DNA from: Amycolatopsis sp. GM8
GTDB taxonomy: Bacteria > Actinomycetota > Actinomycetes > Mycobacteriales > Pseudonocardiaceae
Direction of reading: 5' to 3'
Assembly: GCF_021653975.1 (NCBI RefSeq)
Contig: NZ_JAJKFK010000002.1
Location: 434,001 to 498,000, forward strand
DNA: 64,000 bases
Position numbers and translations under genes: made by a program. Below the pieces are notes generated by a model. The model saw nothing but the letters and a program-made list of their open reading frames with translations, was not told the DNA's origin and did not search any database. Within the stretch, counting starts at the first letter, position 1. Each line of letters begins with the position of its first letter. Of this stretch, positions 921-8,645 are shown one piece after another.

Positions 921-1148
921 CTACGGCTGCGCCGGACCCGGGCCGTCCCGGTGCGGATCGGTCCCGCCCTGGCTCTTGTGCAGCAGGTCCTTCGCCTTGT
1001 TGCTCACGTTGTCGATCTTGTCGGAATGCTGGCCGAGCTTGGACTTGGCGAACCCGCTCGCCTTGTCGATCCCGTGCTCGATCTTCTCCGCGTTCTGGCC
1101 CAGCGCGTCCTGAGCCTTTTTCTTGATCTCATCGAAGTTGATGCCCAT
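921..1148 (-). CDS. MT0933-family antitoxin-like small protein
   Basis: This is a 75-residue, lysine-rich, highly charged protein that starts MGINFDEIKKKAQDALGQNA. It repeats amphipathic segments of the kind K..A...LG.....I...I.KA. The pattern matches the MT0933/Rv0909 antitoxin family, whose partner in Mycobacterium is an SRPBCC protein (Rv0910). The gene next door on the opposite strand is an SRPBCC protein, which supports the assignment. A GTG at 1175 would add nine residues (MSDSVFDGA); I prefer the ATG at 1148 because family members begin close to this point. Toxin neutralisation is inferred from the family and was not shown here. Unlike the mycobacterial pair, the two genes are divergent. 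Confidence 0.7.
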   Translation of the reverse strand: MGINFDEIKKKAQDALGQNAEKIEHGIDKASGFAKSKLGQHSDKIDNVSNKAKDLLHKSQGGTDPHRDGPGPAQP

Positions 1149-1199: not shown

Positions 1200-1640
1200 A
1201 TGTCACCGAAGACGTTTTCGTTCGAGGTCAACCGCACCAGCACCGCACCGCCGGGCATCCTGTTCCGGCTCGAAACCGATGGCGCGCGCTGGTCGGACTG
1301 GGCGAAACCGCTCCGGTCGAGCTGGGCGCGGTGGGCCGATCCGGTGGGCGGCGTCGGCGCGATCCGCCGCGTCGGGCTGTTCCCGGTGATCATGTACGAG
1401 GAGACCATCGAGTACGAACAGGACCGGCGCCACGTCTACACGCTCGTCCGCCGGACTCCGGTGCACGACTACCGCGGTGAGGTGACCTTCACCCCGAACG
1501 CGGCGGGTGGCACCGACCTGCGCTGGCGGGGTTCGTTCGGGGAGCGGTTCCCGGGCACCGGTCCGGTCATGCGGCGGTTCCTGCTGACGGTGATCACGAT
1601 CATCTCGCGGCAGCTGGTGCGGGCCGCCGAACGCGACTGA
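1200..1640 (+). CDS. SRPBCC-family protein, possible toxin partner
   Basis: A 146-residue START/SRPBCC (polyketide cyclase-like) protein. It opens with the usual first strand and alpha1 of the fold (SFEVNRTSTAPPGILFRLET) and continues with WSDWAKPLRSSW. Two long strands follow (YEETIEYEQDRRHVYTLVRR and DYRGEVTFTPNAAGGTDLRW), and the C-terminal helix carries many basic residues. The fold forms a hydrophobic ligand pocket. In the Rv0909/Rv0910 pair the SRPBCC member is reported as the toxin. The ATG at 1200 follows an AGAAGGG ribosome-binding site and lies 51 bp from the divergent antitoxin start, so both probably share a promoter region. The ligand and any toxicity are unknown. Confidence 0.65.
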   Translation: MSPKTFSFEVNRTSTAPPGILFRLETDGARWSDWAKPLRSSWARWADPVGGVGAIRRVGLFPVIMYEETIEYEQDRRHVYTLVRRTPVHDYRGEVTFTPNAAGGTDLRWRGSFGERFPGTGPVMRRFLLTVITIISRQLVRAAERD

Positions 1641-1715: not shown

Positions 1716-2453
1716 ATGACCCGAGGCGCCATCGCCGCCACGCTCGCGCTGGTGGTCTTGACGAGTGCCTGCACGCCCCGAGTCGACGCGGCGGTCGTGC
1801 CCACTGAAGCGCCCGTGGTCGTACCGCCGACGACTCAGCCGTTCGAGCAGGTCCGGCAGACGGCCGGGCCGGTCGTCGACGGGAAGGTGCCGCAGGTGCG
1901 GCGGATCGCGGTGACCGAGCCGTTCGTGTTCCTCACGATCGACGACGGCGCGGTGCCGGACCCGGACGCGCCGCGGCTGATCCGCGAATCGGGCGTGCGC
2001 CCCGTGTTGTTCCTCAACGAGATGTACGTGCGGGGGCACGAGGACTACTTCCGGCAGGTGCTCGCGGCGGGCGCGACACTCGGCGACCACACCGTGAACC
2101 ATCCCGATCTGCGCGGGAAACCGCTGGCGTTCCAGCAAAAGGAGATCTGCGACGACGCCGATGAGCTGGCCCGCGGGCTCGGCGTCCGGCCGGTGCTCTT
2201 CCGGCCGCCGTTCGGCTCGTGGGACGAGAACACGTTGAAGGCAGCGGCGAACTGCGGGATGCGCGTGAGCGTCCTGTGGACGGCGTCGGTGAACGACGGC
2301 CGGGTCGACTTCCAGGACGGAAAGCGCTTACAGGCCGGGGACATCGTGCTCATGCACTTCCGCAAGACGTTCGCGGAGGATTTCGCGGCGTTCGTGAATC
2401 AGTCCAAAAAGGATGGTCTGACTCCGGTGTCGCTGACCGATTTCCTCGGCTAA
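1716..2453 (+). CDS. Lipoprotein polysaccharide deacetylase (NodB homology)
   Basis: A secreted, lipid-anchored carbohydrate esterase. It probably removes N-acetyl groups from peptidoglycan or another surface glycan. Residues 1-18 form a lipoprotein signal peptide ending in the lipobox LTSAC, so Cys18 is the likely lipidation site. A proline- and threonine-rich linker follows. The NodB domain shows motif 1 LTIDDGAVPD (two aspartates), motif 2 LGDHTVNHPDLR (the two metal-binding histidines) and motif 3 FRPPFGSWDENT. The last metal and catalytic region is VLMHFRKTF. The start is set by AAAGGGGA seven bases upstream. The 3' end overlaps the convergent CHAT gene by four bases. Substrate is not predictable from sequence. 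Confidence 0.85.
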   Translation: MTRGAIAATLALVVLTSACTPRVDAAVVPTEAPVVVPPTTQPFEQVRQTAGPVVDGKVPQVRRIAVTEPFVFLTIDDGAVPDPDAPRLIRESGVRPVLFLNEMYVRGHEDYFRQVLAAGATLGDHTVNHPDLRGKPLAFQQKEICDDADELARGLGVRPVLFRPPFGSWDENTLKAAANCGMRVSVLWTASVNDGRVDFQDGKRLQAGDIVLMHFRKTFAEDFAAFVNQSKKDGLTPVSLTDFLG

Positions 2454-5038
2454 CCCGCGCCGAGGCACAGGAACGGCCGGCGCAGGGGGTCGGCCGCGAT
2501 CGCCTCCGCCAGGGCCAGCGCCGGGGAAATACCCTTCGCCAGCAAGCGATGCAGGTCGGTCATCGCCTGCGCGGCGGCTTGGTCACCAACCCGCGCGATC
2601 GCACCGACGATCGTGCGCGAGCCGCCCGCGAGGAGGGCGCCCGCGAAGCCCAGGGCCTCCTCGCCCGGCCGGATGTGGCTCATCGCCAGCTCACACGCCG
2701 CGAGCACGACCCGTTCCGGCGGCCGCCGCAAGCGGGTGGTTTCGTGCGCGAAAAGTGGCCCGTCGACCAGATCCAGCCGGGAGAACAACGCGTTGGCCGG
2801 CTCGTGCGCGCCATGCGCGACCAAGTGCGCCAGGGCTGAACCGTCCAGCGCCGCCAGCACCGTCGCACTCGTCGCGCCCTCGCCGTCGACCAGCCGCGCC
2901 TGCGGGTACACCGAACGCAGTTCCCGCACTTCACCGATCGCGCCCGGCACACCCGGCCCACCGACGAGCACCACCGGCTCCGTCTCGACCTGGGTCGCCG
3001 CGCTGCGCCACGCGGTCGCCGACGGAGCGACCGACAGCGGGCGCCCGCGCAGCGACGGCAAAGCCGCCCACGGCAACGCGTACAGCGGCCCGAACGGCAC
3101 GACCACGAGCTCCCGGTCCCCGATCGCGTCCGCGAGCGGCTCCACCAGCAGCCGGTCGAGCAGCCGCGCGCGTTTCTCCGCCGACTGCGTCACCGCGGCG
3201 ACCAGCGGCGCCGGCAACTGGTCGGGCGCGAGCACGTTCAGGTCCGCGTGCAGCTGCCTGGTGATCTCGACCGTTTCCTCGAGCGGGCCGAGGGGAACGA
3301 GCCGGAACCGGCCGTCCCGCACGACGAGCGCGGAGAGCCTGTCGCCGTACCCGGTCAGGCTCACCAGCACGCGATCGCCGAGCGCGGCCGCCACCTCGTC
3401 CGGAGTCGCGACCGGGCGCGGCCGGCCCCAGGGGCTGGTGTACCAGCCGAGCCTGCCCGCTTCCCGCTGCAGCCGGCGGTAGCGTTGCTCCAATGTGGAC
3501 ACGCTCTTGCCCTCGAGCCGGTTCTGCTGGGCGATGCGCTGCACGTGCCGCATTTCCGTGATCAGCCGGGCCAGCACGGGATCGGCGATCTCGGGCAGCG
3601 GCTCGTACCGGTAGACCTGCGCCCGAGTGCGCTCCTGCCAGGCGAAAACCCTTCTGGCGCCGGCGTTTCCGCGCGCCCGGCCGAGTACCAGCCCGGTCGC
3701 GAGGCTACCCAGCTCCTGCCCGTGCACGGCCGTACCGCACACCAGGTCCAGACCACCCATCCGGTCGCGGACCCGGCTCAGCTCGACGAAACCGGCGCGC
3801 GCCTGCGCGAGCGCCGCGCGTGAATTCCCTTGTGCCACCGCGAGTTCCGCGCGGCACAGGCGCAGCAGCATCACGTGGTCGATCGGGGTGGTCTGCCGCG
3901 GGTTCGGGATCCGCGCGAGCATTTCCCCGGCGGCTTCGACCGCGCCACGGCGCAGGTTCAGCCGCACCGCGAGCAGCCGGGCCACGGACGCCTCGTCGCG
4001 CAGGCCCAGTTCCGCCAGGCGGGCGGCCTGCTCGGCGAGCTGCACCGGCAACCGGGCGGGTGGGCGCCGTTCGGAGTCCAGCGCCTCGGTCGCGGTCGCG
4101 CGCAGCTTGGCGAGCGCGGCGACCTCGGCCCATCTTTCGTTGCCACGACGGAGGAATCTGCGGTGTGCGCCGGTGGCCAGGCGCCGCGCGAGCGGGAAAT
4201 CCCGTTCGAGGATCGCGGCGGCGGCGCGCGCCACCTCGGCTTCGGCCACGTCCTGGATCGCGCGGTTGCGGCGGAGTTCCGGCAGTGCCTCGTCCAGCTG
4301 CCGCGCCGCTTCCTCGGCGAGCCCCGCGGTCAGCAGCGCGCGCCCTTGGTCCAGCCGCAGCCGCGGCAGCCAGCCCGGGCTCTCCGCCTCGTAGCTGCGC
4401 GCGGCCTGCTCGTAGTAGTGCAGGGCCGCCGGGATATCACCGACCAGTTGCGACTGGTCACCGAAATTATGCCGCGCCTTGCCTTCGATCCGGGTCAGCC
4501 CGTGCCGCTCGGCAAGATCTATGCAGCGGCGCAGATCGGAAAGTGCGGCATCCGGCGTGTTGAGGTTCATGTGGACAAGCGCGCGGTTCATCAGGTTGCG
4601 CGACAAGGGAAGCGCGTTCTCCTCGGCGTCGCTCTCGAGCACCGGGATGATTTCGTCGAACAGCTGGAGCGCTTCGGTGAACCGGCCGATCCGGCTGAAC
4701 ACCAGGGCCCGCTGCGCGCCGATGACCGCGCTGAGCATTCGCGACTCGGCGTTTTCGGGCAGCAGTCCCGGCAATGCGGCGGCGTCGTCGAGGTGGCCTA
4801 GACCAGTTGTCGCCGAACCGACCTCGGCTTCGGCCATCGCCATGCTGATGAGGATCCGGGCCCGCAGCCGCACCCAGTCCGGTTCGGCGCGGGGGCCGGC
4901 GGAATCCAGCAGTTTCAGCGCCCGGCCCAGCAGGCGGACGGCCTCCACGTTCAGCAGATTCCCGGACGCGTCAGCCGCCTTGACATGCAGCCGCGCCACG
5001 CGTGCGAGAACGCGTTCCAGTTCGCGGGGGCCTGCCAC
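2450..5038 (-). CDS. TPR-repeat CHAT-domain cysteine protease
   Basis: An 862-residue protein with an N-terminal two-thirds of helical tetratricopeptide-like repeats. Recurring blocks include NLNTPDAALSDLRRCIDLAE and HNFGDQSQLVGDIPAALHYY. The C-terminal CHAT (caspase HetF-associated with TPRs) domain runs from about residue 560. The predicted dyad is His742 in LVAHGAHEP and Cys782 in VVLAACELA, both intact, so protease activity is plausible. No signal peptide or membrane segment is visible, so it should be cytoplasmic. It lies 48 bp downstream of a small beta-rich gene and the sigma factor gene and is probably the last gene of that operon. The start at 5038 is GTG with a weak ribosome-binding site. 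CHAT proteins often act in conflict or cell-death pathways; the target here is unknown. Confidence 0.85.
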   Translation of the reverse strand: MAGPRELERVLARVARLHVKAADASGNLLNVEAVRLLGRALKLLDSAGPRAEPDWVRLRARILISMAMAEAEVGSATTGLGHLDDAAALPGLLPENAESRMLSAVIGAQRALVFSRIGRFTEALQLFDEIIPVLESDAEENALPLSRNLMNRALVHMNLNTPDAALSDLRRCIDLAERHGLTRIEGKARHNFGDQSQLVGDIPAALHYYEQAARSYEAESPGWLPRLRLDQGRALLTAGLAEEAARQLDEALPELRRNRAIQDVAEAEVARAAAAILERDFPLARRLATGAHRRFLRRGNERWAEVAALAKLRATATEALDSERRPPARLPVQLAEQAARLAELGLRDEASVARLLAVRLNLRRGAVEAAGEMLARIPNPRQTTPIDHVMLLRLCRAELAVAQGNSRAALAQARAGFVELSRVRDRMGGLDLVCGTAVHGQELGSLATGLVLGRARGNAGARRVFAWQERTRAQVYRYEPLPEIADPVLARLITEMRHVQRIAQQNRLEGKSVSTLEQRYRRLQREAGRLGWYTSPWGRPRPVATPDEVAAALGDRVLVSLTGYGDRLSALVVRDGRFRLVPLGPLEETVEITRQLHADLNVLAPDQLPAPLVAAVTQSAEKRARLLDRLLVEPLADAIGDRELVVVPFGPLYALPWAALPSLRGRPLSVAPSATAWRSAATQVETEPVVLVGGPGVPGAIGEVRELRSVYPQARLVDGEGATSATVLAALDGSALAHLVAHGAHEPANALFSRLDLVDGPLFAHETTRLRRPPERVVLAACELAMSHIRPGEEALGFAGALLAGGSRTIVGAIARVGDQAAAQAMTDLHRLLAKGISPALALAEAIAADPLRRPFLCLGAG

Positions 5039-5086
5039 GGTAACTATCTGAGCACACCGCGCCGCAGGGGTATACAGCCGGTGAGG

Positions 5087-5566
5087 TCAGAGCACGACGG
5101 CCGGCGTGACTACGGTGCGTCGACTGGCCGCGCCGCCGACCGAAATGACGATCTGCGTGGTCCCCCGGGGCACACTGTCGAGTACGAACCGGCCGCCTTC
5201 GTCGGACACTGTGGACGACGAACCGTGCCCGGCGACGCGCACCTCGACCCCGTGCTCACCGGCCGGCACCAGCCAGCCGTCGATCCGGTGCACCTGGCCC
5301 ACCTTGGTCAGGTTGATCATCACGGTCAGATCGCTCACGGTGAAGGTGATCGTGCCCTGATCCACGCTGCTGCGGACACCGGCGAGCTGGCCGGCCCGCT
5401 CCCACCGGGCCACCTCGACGTCGATGTTCTCCAGCTCCAATGCGAACTGGACCCGTTCGACGAGCCCGTCCGGAGGTGAATCACAGGCCGCGAGCACGCG
5501 GCCAAGGTCCGCCAGCAAGGCTTCGTCGCTGGGATGCGCCTCCTCCGGCACCTGTATCTCGTTCAT
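5087..5566 (-). CDS. Small protein with carboxypeptidase-regulatory-like beta-sandwich
   Basis: A 159-residue cytoplasmic protein. The N-terminal third is acidic and helical (EEAHPSDEALLADLGRVLAA). The C-terminal part is a beta-rich module containing GEHGVEVRVAGHGSSSTVSD, then EGGRFVLDSVPRGTTQIVI. That order (variable strand, DEGGRF, LxxVPxGxxxI) is typical of carboxypeptidase-regulatory-like or transthyretin-like folds. Its ATG overlaps the stop of the sigma factor gene (ATGA), so the two are translationally coupled, and the CHAT gene follows after 48 bp. Its position suggests a sensor or adaptor linking the sigma factor with the CHAT protein; this is inference. It has no signal peptide, which is unusual for proteins with this extracellular-type fold. 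Confidence 0.6.
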   Translation of the reverse strand: MNEIQVPEEAHPSDEALLADLGRVLAACDSPPDGLVERVQFALELENIDVEVARWERAGQLAGVRSSVDQGTITFTVSDLTVMINLTKVGQVHRIDGWLVPAGEHGVEVRVAGHGSSSTVSDEGGRFVLDSVPRGTTQIVISVGGAASRRTVVTPAVVL

Positions 5567-6168
5567 GCGCTGCCCCCTTCGATGTCCAGCAGTTCGCGCA
5601 TCGTCTTCAGACAGCGGCCTCGGTTGGGCCCGATACTGCCGCGCGGCATCTGTAATGCCTCGGCGACAACCCGGTACTCCGCGCGTCCGGCGAGCACCGT
5701 GAGCCGCAGCAGTTCCTGACACCGCTGCGGAAGCTTGCCGAACGCCGCCCAGATATCGCGATCCCGCTCGGTGCGCAGCGCCTCGGCTTCGGGCGCGGGC
5801 AACGTACTGGGCACGGTTTCGGCCATTTCGTCGGTCAGTGGGACGGGGGGTTGCTTGCGGCCGTTGGCGCGTTGCGCCTCGTGCCGGGCGGTGGTGACCA
5901 GCCAGCCCGCGAGCGCCTTGGGCTCGCGCAGTTTTTGGAGGTGGCTCAGCAAGGCGAGCCACACCGTCTGCACGACGTCCTCGGCGGTGTGCCTGTCCAG
6001 GCCGTGGCCGCGCGCGACGTTCCACACCAGTGGTGTCAGCTCCGCGACCAGCCGGTCGAGGCCCCGTTTGTCACCTTCACGGGCGGCGTGCAGGCATGCT
6101 TCGAACAGCTCCGGGCCGCGCAGACCCTCCCAGGGAGGACCCGCTTCGGCGGTGTCGACGTCCGTCAC
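5563..6168 (-). CDS. ECF-like sigma-70 family sigma factor
   Basis: A 201-residue sigma factor. Region 2 spans about residues 25-90 (LVWNVARGHGLDRHTAEDVV, then LREPKALAGWLVTTARHEAQ, matching 2.1-2.4). Region 4 is at the C terminus (LPQRCQELLRLTVL, then a helix-turn-helix YRVVAEALQMPRGSIGPNRG and a final RCLKTMRELL). The two regions are joined by a short linker, as in the ECF class. The GTG at 6168 is chosen because the longer frame upstream has no family resemblance. It is coupled by ATGA to the next gene and leads the operon that ends with the CHAT protease. No anti-sigma gene is adjacent, so control may be transcriptional or through the partner proteins. The leader carries four strong hairpins. 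Confidence 0.83.
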   Translation of the reverse strand: MTDVDTAEAGPPWEGLRGPELFEACLHAAREGDKRGLDRLVAELTPLVWNVARGHGLDRHTAEDVVQTVWLALLSHLQKLREPKALAGWLVTTARHEAQRANGRKQPPVPLTDEMAETVPSTLPAPEAEALRTERDRDIWAAFGKLPQRCQELLRLTVLAGRAEYRVVAEALQMPRGSIGPNRGRCLKTMRELLDIEGGSA

Positions 6169-6303
6169 ACCATTCGCCCCCGCTCTCCGTGGCTCTCCTC
6201 GCCATGACGCCCGCAGTATCCCGCCTACGTCGTATGAGAGAAGCCTCGCCGCCGTCAGATACAAACACCACCCATTTGGCGTAGTGTCGTCCGTCACATA
6301 CAG

Positions 6304-6408
6304 CACCGGCCGGTGCCGACGACTGTCGACACCGGCCGGGCTCCCCCTTACTGCCGGTGGCCCTCCCCGTGGCCACCACACCCCGTGGTCGTCCCCCTCG
6401 ACGACCAC
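6304..6408. repeat. Three tandem GC-rich hairpins
   Basis: Three consecutive inverted repeats lie between the repeat-protein gene and the sigma gene. Hairpin 1 (6306-6339) has 10-bp arms CCGGCCGGTG/CACCGGCCGG, a C-A mismatch, four more pairs and a GACT loop. Hairpin 2 (6356-6377) pairs GGTGGCC with GGCCACC. Hairpin 3 (6385-6408) pairs GTGGTCGTC with GACGACCAC around CCCCTC. They lie in the 3' region of the repeat-protein gene and the 5' leader of the sigma operon. Termination, attenuation or RNA stabilisation are all possible. Confidence 0.75.
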
Positions 6409-6413
6409 CGGAA

Positions 6414-6452
6414 GGTGACGGCCGGCGGCCCCCTCGGCTGCCGGCCGTCACC
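6414..6452 (-). terminator. Very strong hairpin just after the repeat-protein stop
   Basis: A 13-bp perfect stem (GGTGACGGCCGGC with GCCGGCCGTCACC) continues inward for four more pairs, one of them a wobble, to a CCCTC loop. It begins eight bases beyond the stop codon at 6460 on the minus strand. No T-run follows, so it would be a non-canonical actinobacterial terminator or an RNA-protecting element. It is the fourth in a row of hairpins that share C-rich loops. Confidence 0.65.
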
Positions 6453-6459
6453 AGCTCAG

Positions 6460-7260
6460 TCAGACCAGCAACTGGTCGATCTGGCCGAACGCGTTCTCGT
6501 GGAAGGAGACGGTGAGCCCGTTCGCCTTCGCCAGCACCGCGAGCCCGGTCAGCGGGCTGCGGCCGGTCTCGACCGCCGCGAGCTGCTTCCAGCCCAGCCC
6601 CGCGACGAAGACCCACACGCCGGGACGGCCGCTGGAGGACCACAGCTGCGTGATCACGCGGTTGCGGATCCACAGGCCGGTGGCCACCGGCATGGCGCCG
6701 TTGCCGGTGTGCGGCTGCGGCCCGGGCCGCGGCGGGGTGTTGGGATCCCAGGCACCGGCCGGGACCGGTGGCGTGTTCGGGTCCCACGCACCGGTGGGCG
6801 GAGGCGTGTTGGGGTCCCAAGCGCCCGTGGGCGGAGGCGTGTTGGGGTCCCACGCGCCAGTCGGCGGAGGCGTGTTGGGGTCCCACGCGCCAGTCGGCGC
6901 CACAGGCGGCGGGGTATTCGGGTCCCACGCACCCGTCGGCGCCACAGGCGGCGGAGTGTTCGGGTCCCACGCACCGGTCGGTGCGACAGGCGGCGGGGTA
7001 TTCGGATCCCAAGCACCCGTCGGCGCCACAGGCGGCGGAGTGTTCGGGTCCCACGCACCCGTCGGCGCGACAGGCGGCGGAGTATTCGGATCCCACGCAC
7101 CAGTGGGCGCCGCAGGTGGCGGCTTGTTCGGATCCCAGGCACCGGTCGGCGCCGGCGGCGGGGTGTTCGGGTCCCACGCGCCGGTGGGCGCACCGGCATG
7201 GACGGTTTCGGGCTCTTCTTCCGGGCCGGTGTCCGGGTTCTGGGTCTCGCTCGCGGTCAT
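6460..7260 (-). CDS. GAWDPN-repeat protein with a C-terminal domain shared with the adjacent peptidase
   Basis: A 266-residue protein in three parts. Residues 1-23 are acidic. Residues 24-179 hold twelve copies of a proline-rich repeat built on TGAWDPNTPPP, with 11- or 14-residue periods. Residues 195-266 form a globular domain with LW.SS....VWVFVAGLGWKQL and a terminal beta/helix-like segment. That last domain aligns over about 61 residues with the C terminus of the upstream papain-like peptidase. There is no signal peptide or membrane segment. The start follows GGGAG, and the gene lies 26 bp after the peptidase gene in the same direction, so they are probably co-transcribed. I do not recognise the family. 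It could be a substrate, scaffold or inhibitor of the peptidase. Confidence 0.75.
   Translation of the reverse strand: MTASETQNPDTGPEEEPETVHAGAPTGAWDPNTPPPAPTGAWDPNKPPPAAPTGAWDPNTPPPVAPTGAWDPNTPPPVAPTGAWDPNTPPPVAPTGAWDPNTPPPVAPTGAWDPNTPPPVAPTGAWDPNTPPPTGAWDPNTPPPTGAWDPNTPPPTGAWDPNTPPVPAGAWDPNTPPRPGPQPHTGNGAMPVATGLWIRNRVITQLWSSSGRPGVWVFVAGLGWKQLAAVETGRSPLTGLAVLAKANGLTVSFHENAFGQIDQLLV
6724..7191 (-). repeat. In-frame tandem repeat, 12 copies of GAWDPN unit
   Basis: Twelve DNA units of 33 or 42 bp each encode (P)TGAWDPNTPPP(VA). The inner five copies are nearly identical at protein level but vary at synonymous positions (for example gtcccacgca, gatcccaagc). This suggests selection on the peptide as well as recent duplication. 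The outer copies are more divergent. The array can expand or contract by slippage in whole codons. Confidence 0.95.
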
Positions 7261-7286
7261 CGCTGCAGCTCCCCTTGCTCACACGA

Positions 7287-8435
7287 TCAGTAGATGGTCT
7301 GGACCATTAGTAACTCGTCGTTCACGACATACGGCAGGACGGGGTAGCCACCTGCCCGGGCGTCGGCGAGCAGCGCGAACTGGTTCGTCCCGCTCGCCCC
7401 CGCGGAGAGCCGGGTCCACCCCAGGTCCTCCAGGAACGCCCATCCGCCCGCGTCCCGCGCCGACGCGAACAGGCCGAGCGCGCGTTGCGGCGGTAGCCAT
7501 GCGCGCAAGGTCGTGCCAATGCAACCGATGGTGGTCGGCCGTTCCTCCGGATAGTCCTCGATGTACGACTCGCCGTACGCGATCCGGAAGTAGCCTTCCT
7601 CGCCCCAGCCCGTGCCCCACGAGTTCTTCCCGATCCAGCAGCCCTGATCGTCGTCCCAGCCGACGAGCGCGACGCAGTGCCCGCCCTTGGTCTCGTCGGT
7701 GGTGTGCCGGTAGACGCCGCTGGTGTAGTGAAAGAAGTCTTCGTAGACCACCATGCAGGTGGTGACCGGTCCGTGCCCGTAGATGTGGTGCTTGATCCCC
7801 GACGGATCCCGGGTCAGGTCGACCATCTGTTCCGCATGGACGACGCGGTTGCGCCAGTTCGGGTTCAAGTGCCCGGCACCGGTGTCGGTGTAGGGCCAGT
7901 AATCCTCGAACGTGACACCGTTCGCCACGCAGTCGCCCAGCAGATCGTCCGGCCAGGTGCCGTCCTCCCCGCTCAGCTGTTTCTGCGTGGCCTGCCCGAA
8001 ATAGAGGTGCGCTTCGGACAGGTCCAGGTCCAGCCGCGCCGCCCGCCGCGCGTAGGCAGCGGTCCCCTCCAGCACGGCGATGACCCCGAACGCGGTGCAC
8101 GAACCGCGCTCCCCCTGGTCCTTGACGGGCGTGGTGTAGTCGCCGTCGCGGGTGCGCCGCAGGTCGAACGACCGCGGCAGCCTCTCGGTCGGCGCGTGCC
8201 TGCCGGTGCACTTCTGCCCGGCGGTCCCGAGCGCGGCCTCGGCCATCTGCCCGGGCAACTCCACCCGGGCCTCGACCGCGGCCGCGCTCGGGGCCGGCAC
8301 CCCCAGCCGCACCGCACGCGACCGGCCCCCCAACCTGCTCAGCAAGGTCTCCCCTACTTGCCACGGATCCCCAAGCGTGGCAAGGGAATCGCGGATCGCC
8401 GCGATCTCCTCTTCGCATGAGCTTTCGGAGCTCAC
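7287..8435 (-). CDS. Papain-family (C1) cysteine peptidase with extra C-terminal domain
   Basis: A 382-residue protein if started at the GTG at 8435, which has an excellent GGAGG seven bases upstream; an ATG at 8507 would add 24 residues of unlikely sequence. Residues 1-85 are a helical, propeptide-like region. The catalytic domain shows VKDQGERGSCTAFG (oxyanion Gln107, nucleophile Cys113), GGHCVALVGWD (His253) and IGKNSWGTGWGEEGYF (Asn271), so the triad is complete. Residues about 322-382 form an additional domain containing GGWAFLEDLGWTRL, also found at the C terminus of the next gene's product. No signal peptide is visible, so the enzyme appears cytoplasmic, which is unusual for papain-like peptidases. 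It heads the locus leading to the sigma/CHAT genes. Confidence 0.88.
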   Translation of the reverse strand: MSSESSCEEEIAAIRDSLATLGDPWQVGETLLSRLGGRSRAVRLGVPAPSAAAVEARVELPGQMAEAALGTAGQKCTGRHAPTERLPRSFDLRRTRDGDYTTPVKDQGERGSCTAFGVIAVLEGTAAYARRAARLDLDLSEAHLYFGQATQKQLSGEDGTWPDDLLGDCVANGVTFEDYWPYTDTGAGHLNPNWRNRVVHAEQMVDLTRDPSGIKHHIYGHGPVTTCMVVYEDFFHYTSGVYRHTTDETKGGHCVALVGWDDDQGCWIGKNSWGTGWGEEGYFRIAYGESYIEDYPEERPTTIGCIGTTLRAWLPPQRALGLFASARDAGGWAFLEDLGWTRLSAGASGTNQFALLADARAGGYPVLPYVVNDELLMVQTIY

Positions 8436-8645
8436 CTGAGTTCCTCCATCGGGGGGTGTGTTCAACCAACGCTCCCTATGACGCATGAGGCGGCGTTCCA
8501 GATACACACCGGCAGAGTTTTTTTGGAACCCCCTGCTCGGGCGCCGGTACTTTCACCCGTTCGGCCCAGCATCCGCCTACCCGGGGTGGTCCGGCGTCCG
8601 GTTTGTTCAAGCGCCTGCCGTCACCCTTCGGGCACACTTCGCCAC

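Follow-up and report, generated by a model that had tools for sequence, protein, structure and literature searches.

Genomic context suggests an undescribed protease signalling circuit in Amycolatopsis and its relatives

The window considered here is a stretch of 64,000 nucleotides from Amycolatopsis sp. GM8 (contig NZ_JAJKFK010000002.1, positions 434,001 to 498,000), in which five adjoining genes encode a papain-family cysteine peptidase (PEP), a repeat protein (REP), an extracytoplasmic function (ECF)-type sigma factor (SIG), a small beta-rich protein (ADA) and a tetratricopeptide repeat (TPR)-CHAT protease (CHAT). These genes had been put forward, from the letters of the window alone, as a candidate undescribed two-protease system (hereafter the original prediction). 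Our comparison with related genomes suggests that the gene cluster, in Amycolatopsis and its relatives, constitutes an undescribed bacterial protease signalling circuit, the halves of which, PEP-REP and SIG-ADA-CHAT, are two operons and yet look like one system.

Gene content of the locus

All five genes were confirmed on the minus strand, the strand of every feature of the locus given below, with the expected families and intact catalytic residues. PEP (7287..8435, GTG start, 382 aa) belongs to the C1 family (Peptidase_C1 PF00112, E 1.2e-37, 130.6 bits, cut-off 20.7) and has the predicted triad Cys113/His253/Asn271 in place; cathepsin B-like chains top the list of its solved relatives, and the best named match comes from A. 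pithecellobii (91%). The sole basis on which PEP may be called cytoplasmic is that no signal peptide is seen by eye. REP (6460..7260, 266 aa) starts 26 bp after PEP, as predicted, and contains 12 copies of a GAWDPN-type motif when counted with a regular-expression pattern, which across loci gave one false count (L090); tandem repeats are found at 6766-6899 and 6863-7191, and searches of Pfam, NCBIfam and PADLOC gave no match for this protein. PEP and REP have homologous C-terminal domains (7290..7511 and 6463..6690, respectively), which are 33% identical over 55 aa (E 9e-6 in a single comparison), in agreement with the family alignment. This common tail domain is predicted to form a small barrel (predicted local distance difference test score, pLDDT, 89), which we read as OB-type from its neighbours.

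SIG (5563..6168, 201 aa; PF04542) matches the sigma70-ECF profile TIGR02937 with 74.9 bits (cut-off 42.9) over profile positions 3-164 of 165, with regions 2 and 4 both present. The predicted ATGA overlap that couples it to ADA (5087..5566, 159 aa) is there in the sequence, and SIG lies directly upstream of ADA in 74 of 76 ADA loci. The match of ADA to CarboxypepD_reg is weak, its 23.3 bits lying below the curated cut-off of 32.3. CHAT (2450..5038, 862 aa) matches PF12770 (E 1.2e-24, 87.7 bits, cut-off 24), and its predicted catalytic pair His742/Cys782 is present and invariant in 51 of 51 aligned homologues; comparison of its sequence with the PDB yielded weak TPR matches only. The sequence TGTGCTCAGATAG is kept a few bases 5' of the CHAT start (about 5040-5060 in the window, and also at L063, L064, L067 and L068), and is possibly a separate leaderless promoter.

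The cluster of hairpins described in the original prediction between the two halves proved real in that the region folds strongly (RNA fold z -8.2), but it comprises a single hairpin with a 17-bp stem directly 3' of REP (6414..6452), followed by what look like the eroded remains of a chagasin-type (I42) protease inhibitor gene (6269..6398, approximate by eye, from alignment to intact genes). The hairpin is kept in 10 of 10 aligned REP-SIG spacers (the window, eight named Amycolatopsis loci and L064). Aligned to the intact inhibitor genes of L160, L161, L163, L166 and L064, the remnant gives local scores of 57-82, against a plain-shuffle maximum of 38. No I42 match was found anywhere in the window's own genome, and I42 matches occur in 8 of 21 genomes (own plus 20 relatives), 7 of them above the cut-off; the gene appears to have been lost in the window's subclade.

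Linkage of the two operons and a common promoter sequence

A set of 150 genomes of the family was searched with PEP and with ADA. PEP was found in 32 of them (E up to 1e-10), 30 with an orthologue of 53-100% identity, a count from which G109 and G126, each with one weak match, and a second, 38% match in G131 were excluded; ADA was found in 78. PEP and SIG-ADA lie together on the same strand in 28 of the 30 PEP genomes, the exceptions being G130, where they are near the ends of two contigs, and G115, where they are 218 kb apart. It had been set down beforehand that halves rarely found as neighbours, or regulated independently, would tell against the original prediction; within the family, this linkage and the promoter type common to both operons (see below) show the reverse, and we consider the link between the two halves to be strong. 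The notion of a fixed five-gene, two-protease system had to be given up: PEP is present in only 30 of the 78 ADA-bearing genomes, among the 28 linked PEP loci 21 have CHAT after ADA and the other 7 have none beside it, and six distant PEP-REP pairs stand without the SIG-ADA-CHAT set in the stretch fetched.

A wider contig scan with PEP returned 21 loci. Twelve are of the Amycolatopsis or Kibdelosporangium type (SIG-ADA shown in 10, the other 2 lying at a contig edge), 4 are distant actinobacterial pairs, and 5, archaeal or from Cloacimonadota, have the peptidase only. One record, labelled Rhodococcus rhodnii NRRL B-16535 (L165), carries the Kibdelosporangium-type form of the locus, and its label may be wrong. 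At class level, PEP matched in 5 of 296 genomes, own included, and two of these matches showed no tail protein; ADA matched in 51 of 296, and among the 16 loci fetched SIG adjoins ADA in all 16 and CHAT is in the stretch in 10. The six distant loci with PEP and a REP-type tail protein comprise two from Streptomyces, one each from Actinopolymorpha and Nonomuraea, and two others; in the latter two, a lone sigma-like gene is located about 5 and 6.5 kb away. Because these six pairs stand without the trio, PEP-REP is by all appearances an independent module, joined to the trio in this family.

Both Streptomyces pairs lie among contractile-injection genes (a confirmed sheath at L168; baseplate and eCIS_core at L167), and at L167 a chagasin gene and an eCIS_core protein follow the papain/OB-tail pair. 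A role of PEP-REP as injection-system cargo in the window's genome was dropped, as that genome has no phage-sheath match. The distant loci also bear on the explanation that the two operons are unrelated neighbours with only a sigma factor in common, PEP-REP-I42 being a mobile papain module placed under a resident promoter of the ECF54 type, a sigma factor group discussed below. Pairs without the trio, and sheath, baseplate or eCIS_core genes near both Streptomyces loci, are what such a module would leave; the 28/30 linkage in the family is not, and together with the motif data presented later in the text it leads us to regard this explanation as unlikely.

Position 113 of PEP is Cys in 24 of the 30 orthologues, plus one distant relative, and Ser in 6. 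Chagasin genes, called with a custom profile made from six sequences (the copy at L087 was confirmed by Pfam as PF09394), lie near PEP in 19 of the 30 orthologous loci, i.e. in 19 of the 24 Cys-bearing loci and in none of the 6 Ser loci; the only Cys-bearing loci without one are the window, L063, L080, L081 and L091. A chagasin-like gene is also near PEP in five of the six distant PEP-REP loci, the exception being L170. The idea that chagasin is an alternative to the repeats was rejected, since most repeat-bearing PEP loci also carry chagasin. Two relatives of the trio, L120 and L122, have a chagasin gene without a PEP or CHAT match, and in L122 an apparent degenerate REP tail is still present.

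Each operon is preceded by a candidate sigma promoter, TGTATCTG-N15-CGTCATA for PEP-REP (8477..8506) and TGTATCTG-N15-CTCTCATA for SIG-ADA-CHAT (6233..6263). Of the 31 regions upstream of PEP, 30 have a TATC[T/C] site at a distance of 55-108 nt from the aligned start, and all sites except that of L090 have a CGTC- or CTC-type element about 14-16 nt further on. A two-block matrix trained on the 30 PEP sites only gives the window's SIG promoter 21.7 bits and, at 12 bits or more, detects a site in 42 of 74 SIG upstream regions, the corresponding counts being 5 of 370 for shuffles and 15 of 980 for upstream regions of other genes in the same loci. When 81 loci (1.5 Mb) were scanned at 16 bits, 28 sites fell before PEP and 39 before SIG; of the other 30, many are in trio loci that do not carry PEP. 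A sigma-70 scan found no promoter within 5000-8600.

At the genome scale, a strict pattern matches twice in the window's 8.16-Mb genome, before PEP and before SIG (reversed control, 0). As the pattern was designed on these promoters, the two matches are there by construction, and the result is the absence of others; a looser pattern added one match (reversed control, 2). Among 13 genomes of the genus, the strict pattern gave 13 matches in 10 genomes, 10 before PEP and 3 before SIG (reversed control, 1). In the 150 family genomes, the PEP form of the pattern matched once in each of 22 genomes (reversed control, 1): 15 matches precede PEP, 5 precede a small motif open reading frame (ORF), and 2, in G017 and G036, fall inside unrelated coding sequence and were treated as chance. 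In G115, where PEP lies far from SIG, it still has a recognisable promoter site.

Motif proteins, CHAT and the proposed circuit

In trio loci that lack PEP, the promoter sites are followed at about 58-117 nt by small ORFs (41-81 aa) that have a ribosome-binding-like sequence. Their N-terminal stretch is often acidic and their C-terminal part carries copies of a short motif (GNWDPN, GNWEPN, GNYDPH, GNWDPY, GGWEPN, GFHDNS x2, GYHDS x2, GHFDGG x3, GHHEGN x2, GHIGTGS x2, GHHQTH or GQHQTH). The repeats of REP, which are GAWDPN and GVYDPN in Amycolatopsis and GWDPY and GWEPY in sister genera, in 3-12 copies, appear to be of the same kind. Eight small motif proteins had no meaningful match in Pfam or NCBIfam. 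Between the small ORFs of L095 and L096, 13 of 18 differences are at the third codon position (9 synonymous and 6 non-synonymous codons), and between those of L107 and L109 8 of 16 (4 synonymous and 7 non-synonymous codons), with an identical motif-bearing C-terminus; these substitution patterns lend modest support to the small ORFs being coding. At L091 and L119, the ORF after a sigma-type site of 11.3 bits is not a motif peptide but a longer one (293 and 232 aa, respectively).

The presence of a motif protein was then compared with that of CHAT in 66 core loci, defined by SIG plus ADA at >=48% identity. Among the 46 loci with CHAT, a motif protein is clear in 35 (20 REP with repeats, including that of L066, which is on another contig, and 15 small ORFs), doubtful in 7 and not found in 4, and it is found in none of the 20 CHAT-less loci (Fisher 2e-9, kinship ignored). 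Mapped by parsimony on a tree of SIG+ADA, the state of CHAT changes 7 times; the loci without CHAT fall into seven groups, two of which are sister to motif-bearing loci (L133 to L095-097, and L105 to L103/L104). Since in those genera CHAT lies downstream of ADA and the motif ORF upstream of SIG, a single deletion that spares SIG-ADA cannot remove both. CHAT and the motif protein appear to be kept or lost together, as expected for an enzyme and its substrate or an enzyme and its tight inhibitor.

A joint absence was also seen in genus g27 (Kibdelosporangium-type). There, Ser replaces the catalytic Cys in 6 of 6 PEP orthologues, the Cys being kept elsewhere in 24 of 24. All six PEP loci of this genus lack a CHAT after ADA, REP is without repeats in 3 and was not found in the other 3, and no chagasin gene was found in any of them. 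These comparative data point to CHAT, rather than PEP, as the protease that would act on the repeat protein, namely on its motif.

These observations can be assembled into a circuit. An ECF54-like SIG, held or tuned by the translationally coupled ADA, would drive a local regulon made of SIG-ADA(-CHAT) and PEP-REP. The motif protein would be, in PEP-less relatives, a peptide of 41-81 aa in which a G-aromatic/His-Asp/His/Glu...Pro motif occurs one to three times; Amycolatopsis and sister genera would have the motif repeated 3-12 times and joined to the OB-type domain that also forms the tail of the papain. Once triggered, CHAT would cleave or bind the REP repeats, and PEP would in this way be released or directed by REP, the two being tied via the common tail domain, with the chagasin inhibitor serving as a brake in many lineages. 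We consider the chances evenly balanced that CHAT is the protease partner of the motif protein and that the supply of this protein is under sigma control.

The co-occurrence of CHAT and motif would equally be seen if the motif protein were a pseudo-substrate inhibitor of CHAT, so that SIG makes its own brake and the REP repeats sequester CHAT; tandem Pro-rich motifs and sigma-driven synthesis suit such a negative feedback. By itself, however, this leaves unexplained both the fusion of the repeats to a domain in common with a second protease and the Ser for Cys exchange in PEP where CHAT is absent, and we give it a low probability. The motif data return also to the unrelated neighbouring operons considered above, and count against them: repeats go with CHAT in 20 Amycolatopsis-type REP, the REP of CHAT-less loci has none, and motif peptides of loci without PEP use the same promoter.

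Another possibility is a logic such as that of Craspase, in which the TPR-CHAT protease Csx29 cuts Csx30, an inhibitor of CASP-sigma, a cleavage proposed to free the sigma factor in the available text of PMC10028731. Here CHAT would cut an anti-sigma-like ADA and free SIG, and REP and the small peptides would be mere SIG outputs. The gene set parallels Csx29, Csx30 and CASP-sigma, and SIG and ADA overlap by ATGA and stay together in 74 of 76 loci. On the other hand, CHAT tracks the motif protein, absent from all 20 CHAT-less loci, and not ADA, present in all 20 (loci chosen for ADA and SIG), and the libraries searched, the Csx30 content of which is unchecked, gave ADA no match to Csx30. We take this logic to be somewhat unlikely as the whole explanation. 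An abortive anti-phage function seems improbable: CHAT and caspase-like proteases do act in known defence systems (type III-E, PMC10028731), but PADLOC matched none of the five locus proteins (E up to 1), and the same gene order in 28 of 30 genomes looks unlike a mobile defence island, flanking synteny being outside this comparison.

Several points weigh against the proposed circuit. That SIG uses this promoter, ADA restrains SIG, CHAT cuts the motif and REP controls PEP is inferred from sequence, as is every biochemical step. The role of ADA as a sigma regulator is deduced from its position, its coupling and its persistence without CHAT, and its structure model is poor (pLDDT 62), being usable only at about residues 70-159. 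The motif differs greatly from genus to genus, and it is an assumption that one protease family recognises all of its variants. Short ORFs were sorted by eye into clear, doubtful and negative for the motif, with an outcome that depends on the acceptance criteria, and the rule is weakened by the 7 doubtful and 4 negative CHAT-bearing loci (the latter L087, L091, L118 and L119). In addition, CHAT was lost only a few times, and the genomes compared, being related, do not count as independent. The changes in g27 all belong to one lineage, and one genome of that genus, G114, does have CHAT, at the paralogous locus L130. As to the promoter, 8 of the 28 linked PEP loci have no 12-bit SIG site (L075, L077, L079, L080, L081, L087, L090 and L091), the first five all from one genus. 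A third site in the window's own genome (C1:1098418, L231/L259; 14.3 bits) occupies an intergenic position 105 nt upstream of the gene of a predicted secreted protein, which is followed by lipoprotein-like and response-regulator-like genes. This site was counted as chance because it is not kept before three orthologues in the 13 genus genomes (best 3.2, -1.6 and 8.1 bits); a further promoter target outside the locus may nevertheless exist.

In a broader and more doubtful extension of the proposed circuit, non-CRISPR CHAT circuits might be widespread, with a dedicated ECF sigma factor supplying a fast-evolving short-motif protein as the cognate substrate of the CHAT protease next to it; in Amycolatopsis relatives, these would have become a two-protease cascade in which CHAT acts on the amplified repeat protein, this protein controls the papain via the OB-type domain in common, and chagasin acts as a brake.

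Beyond CHAT, the window contains a polysaccharide deacetylase gene on the plus strand (1716-2450; PF01522, 1.6e-21), which is convergent with and abuts the CHAT gene. Further on lies a divergent pair made of an MT0933-like antitoxin gene (924-1148, minus strand; PF14013, 2e-14) and an SRPBCC/Polyketide_cyc2 gene (1200-1637, plus strand; 1.2e-16), which we take to resemble the Rv0909/Rv0910 toxin-antitoxin pair.

Comparison with known systems

According to the available text of PMC8999054, which cites Huang 2015 and Casas-Pastor 2021, ECF54 sigma factors are encoded beside carboxypeptidase, subtilase and CHAT proteins, with no classical anti-sigma factor, and their regulation by proteolysis has already been proposed. 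A sigma-CHAT trio of this kind is already in print as ECF54 context. The assignment of SIG to ECF54 rests on context: an ECF sigma factor and a CHAT protein are neighbours at the locus, and ADA, with its CarboxypepD_reg match below the cut-off, is a candidate for the carboxypeptidase-type neighbour. Unlike the ECF54 context, a motif scan showed no subtilase within 6 kb of the window's SIG, and a papain stands in its place, upstream and with an OB-type tail, together with a repeat protein and, in relatives, an I42 inhibitor; a promoter, a regulon and a motif-peptide family are not described in the available text of PMC8999054. Seven paralogous loci have a subtilase-like gene immediately upstream of SIG, confirmed by Pfam in L132 and L142 and recognised by motif only in the other five. 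L142 is a second CHAT locus of the window's own genome (C16:145000-164000), where the subtilase gene shares a strand with a SIG-like gene and a CHAT homologue (33%) is on the opposite strand; no ADA match was seen there.

Like Craspase, the locus brings together a TPR-CHAT protease, a small non-enzymatic partner and an ECF sigma factor, with a protease proposed to control transcription. It differs in that the window's CHAT is not of the Csx29 family (NF041237, 16.5 bits against a cut-off of 300), in that ADA is a small beta protein without a match to a Csx30-named family or PDB sequence, and in that the Amycolatopsis locus has a repeat protein and another protease in addition. PEP resembles the papain/cathepsin C1 peptidases by its PF00112 domain and triad, and is set apart from them by the OB-type C-terminal domain in common with a partner protein and by the sigma-type promoter. 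Chagasin-type inhibitors are matched by the I42 genes near PEP in most orthologous loci, with the difference that in the window's subclade the gene is gone and eroded remains are left.

A search of the literature in one library found no sigma-CHAT-papain or motif-peptide system. What looks new, within that library, is the motif protein, the promoter, the association of papain and inhibitor, and the co-loss findings. In the literature searched, as far as its available text goes, Csx30 is the CHAT substrate that has been studied in depth; here, a probable CHAT partner is named for much of a genome family, with a recognisable motif, promoter and sigma factor, so that substrate, trigger and output are directly testable. 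The locus also offers an example, from bacteria, of two cysteine proteases wired at one place with a sigma factor, a repeat protein and a protease inhibitor, and it provides a concrete target list for ECF54-type sigma factors, whose outputs are not described in the available text of PMC8999054.

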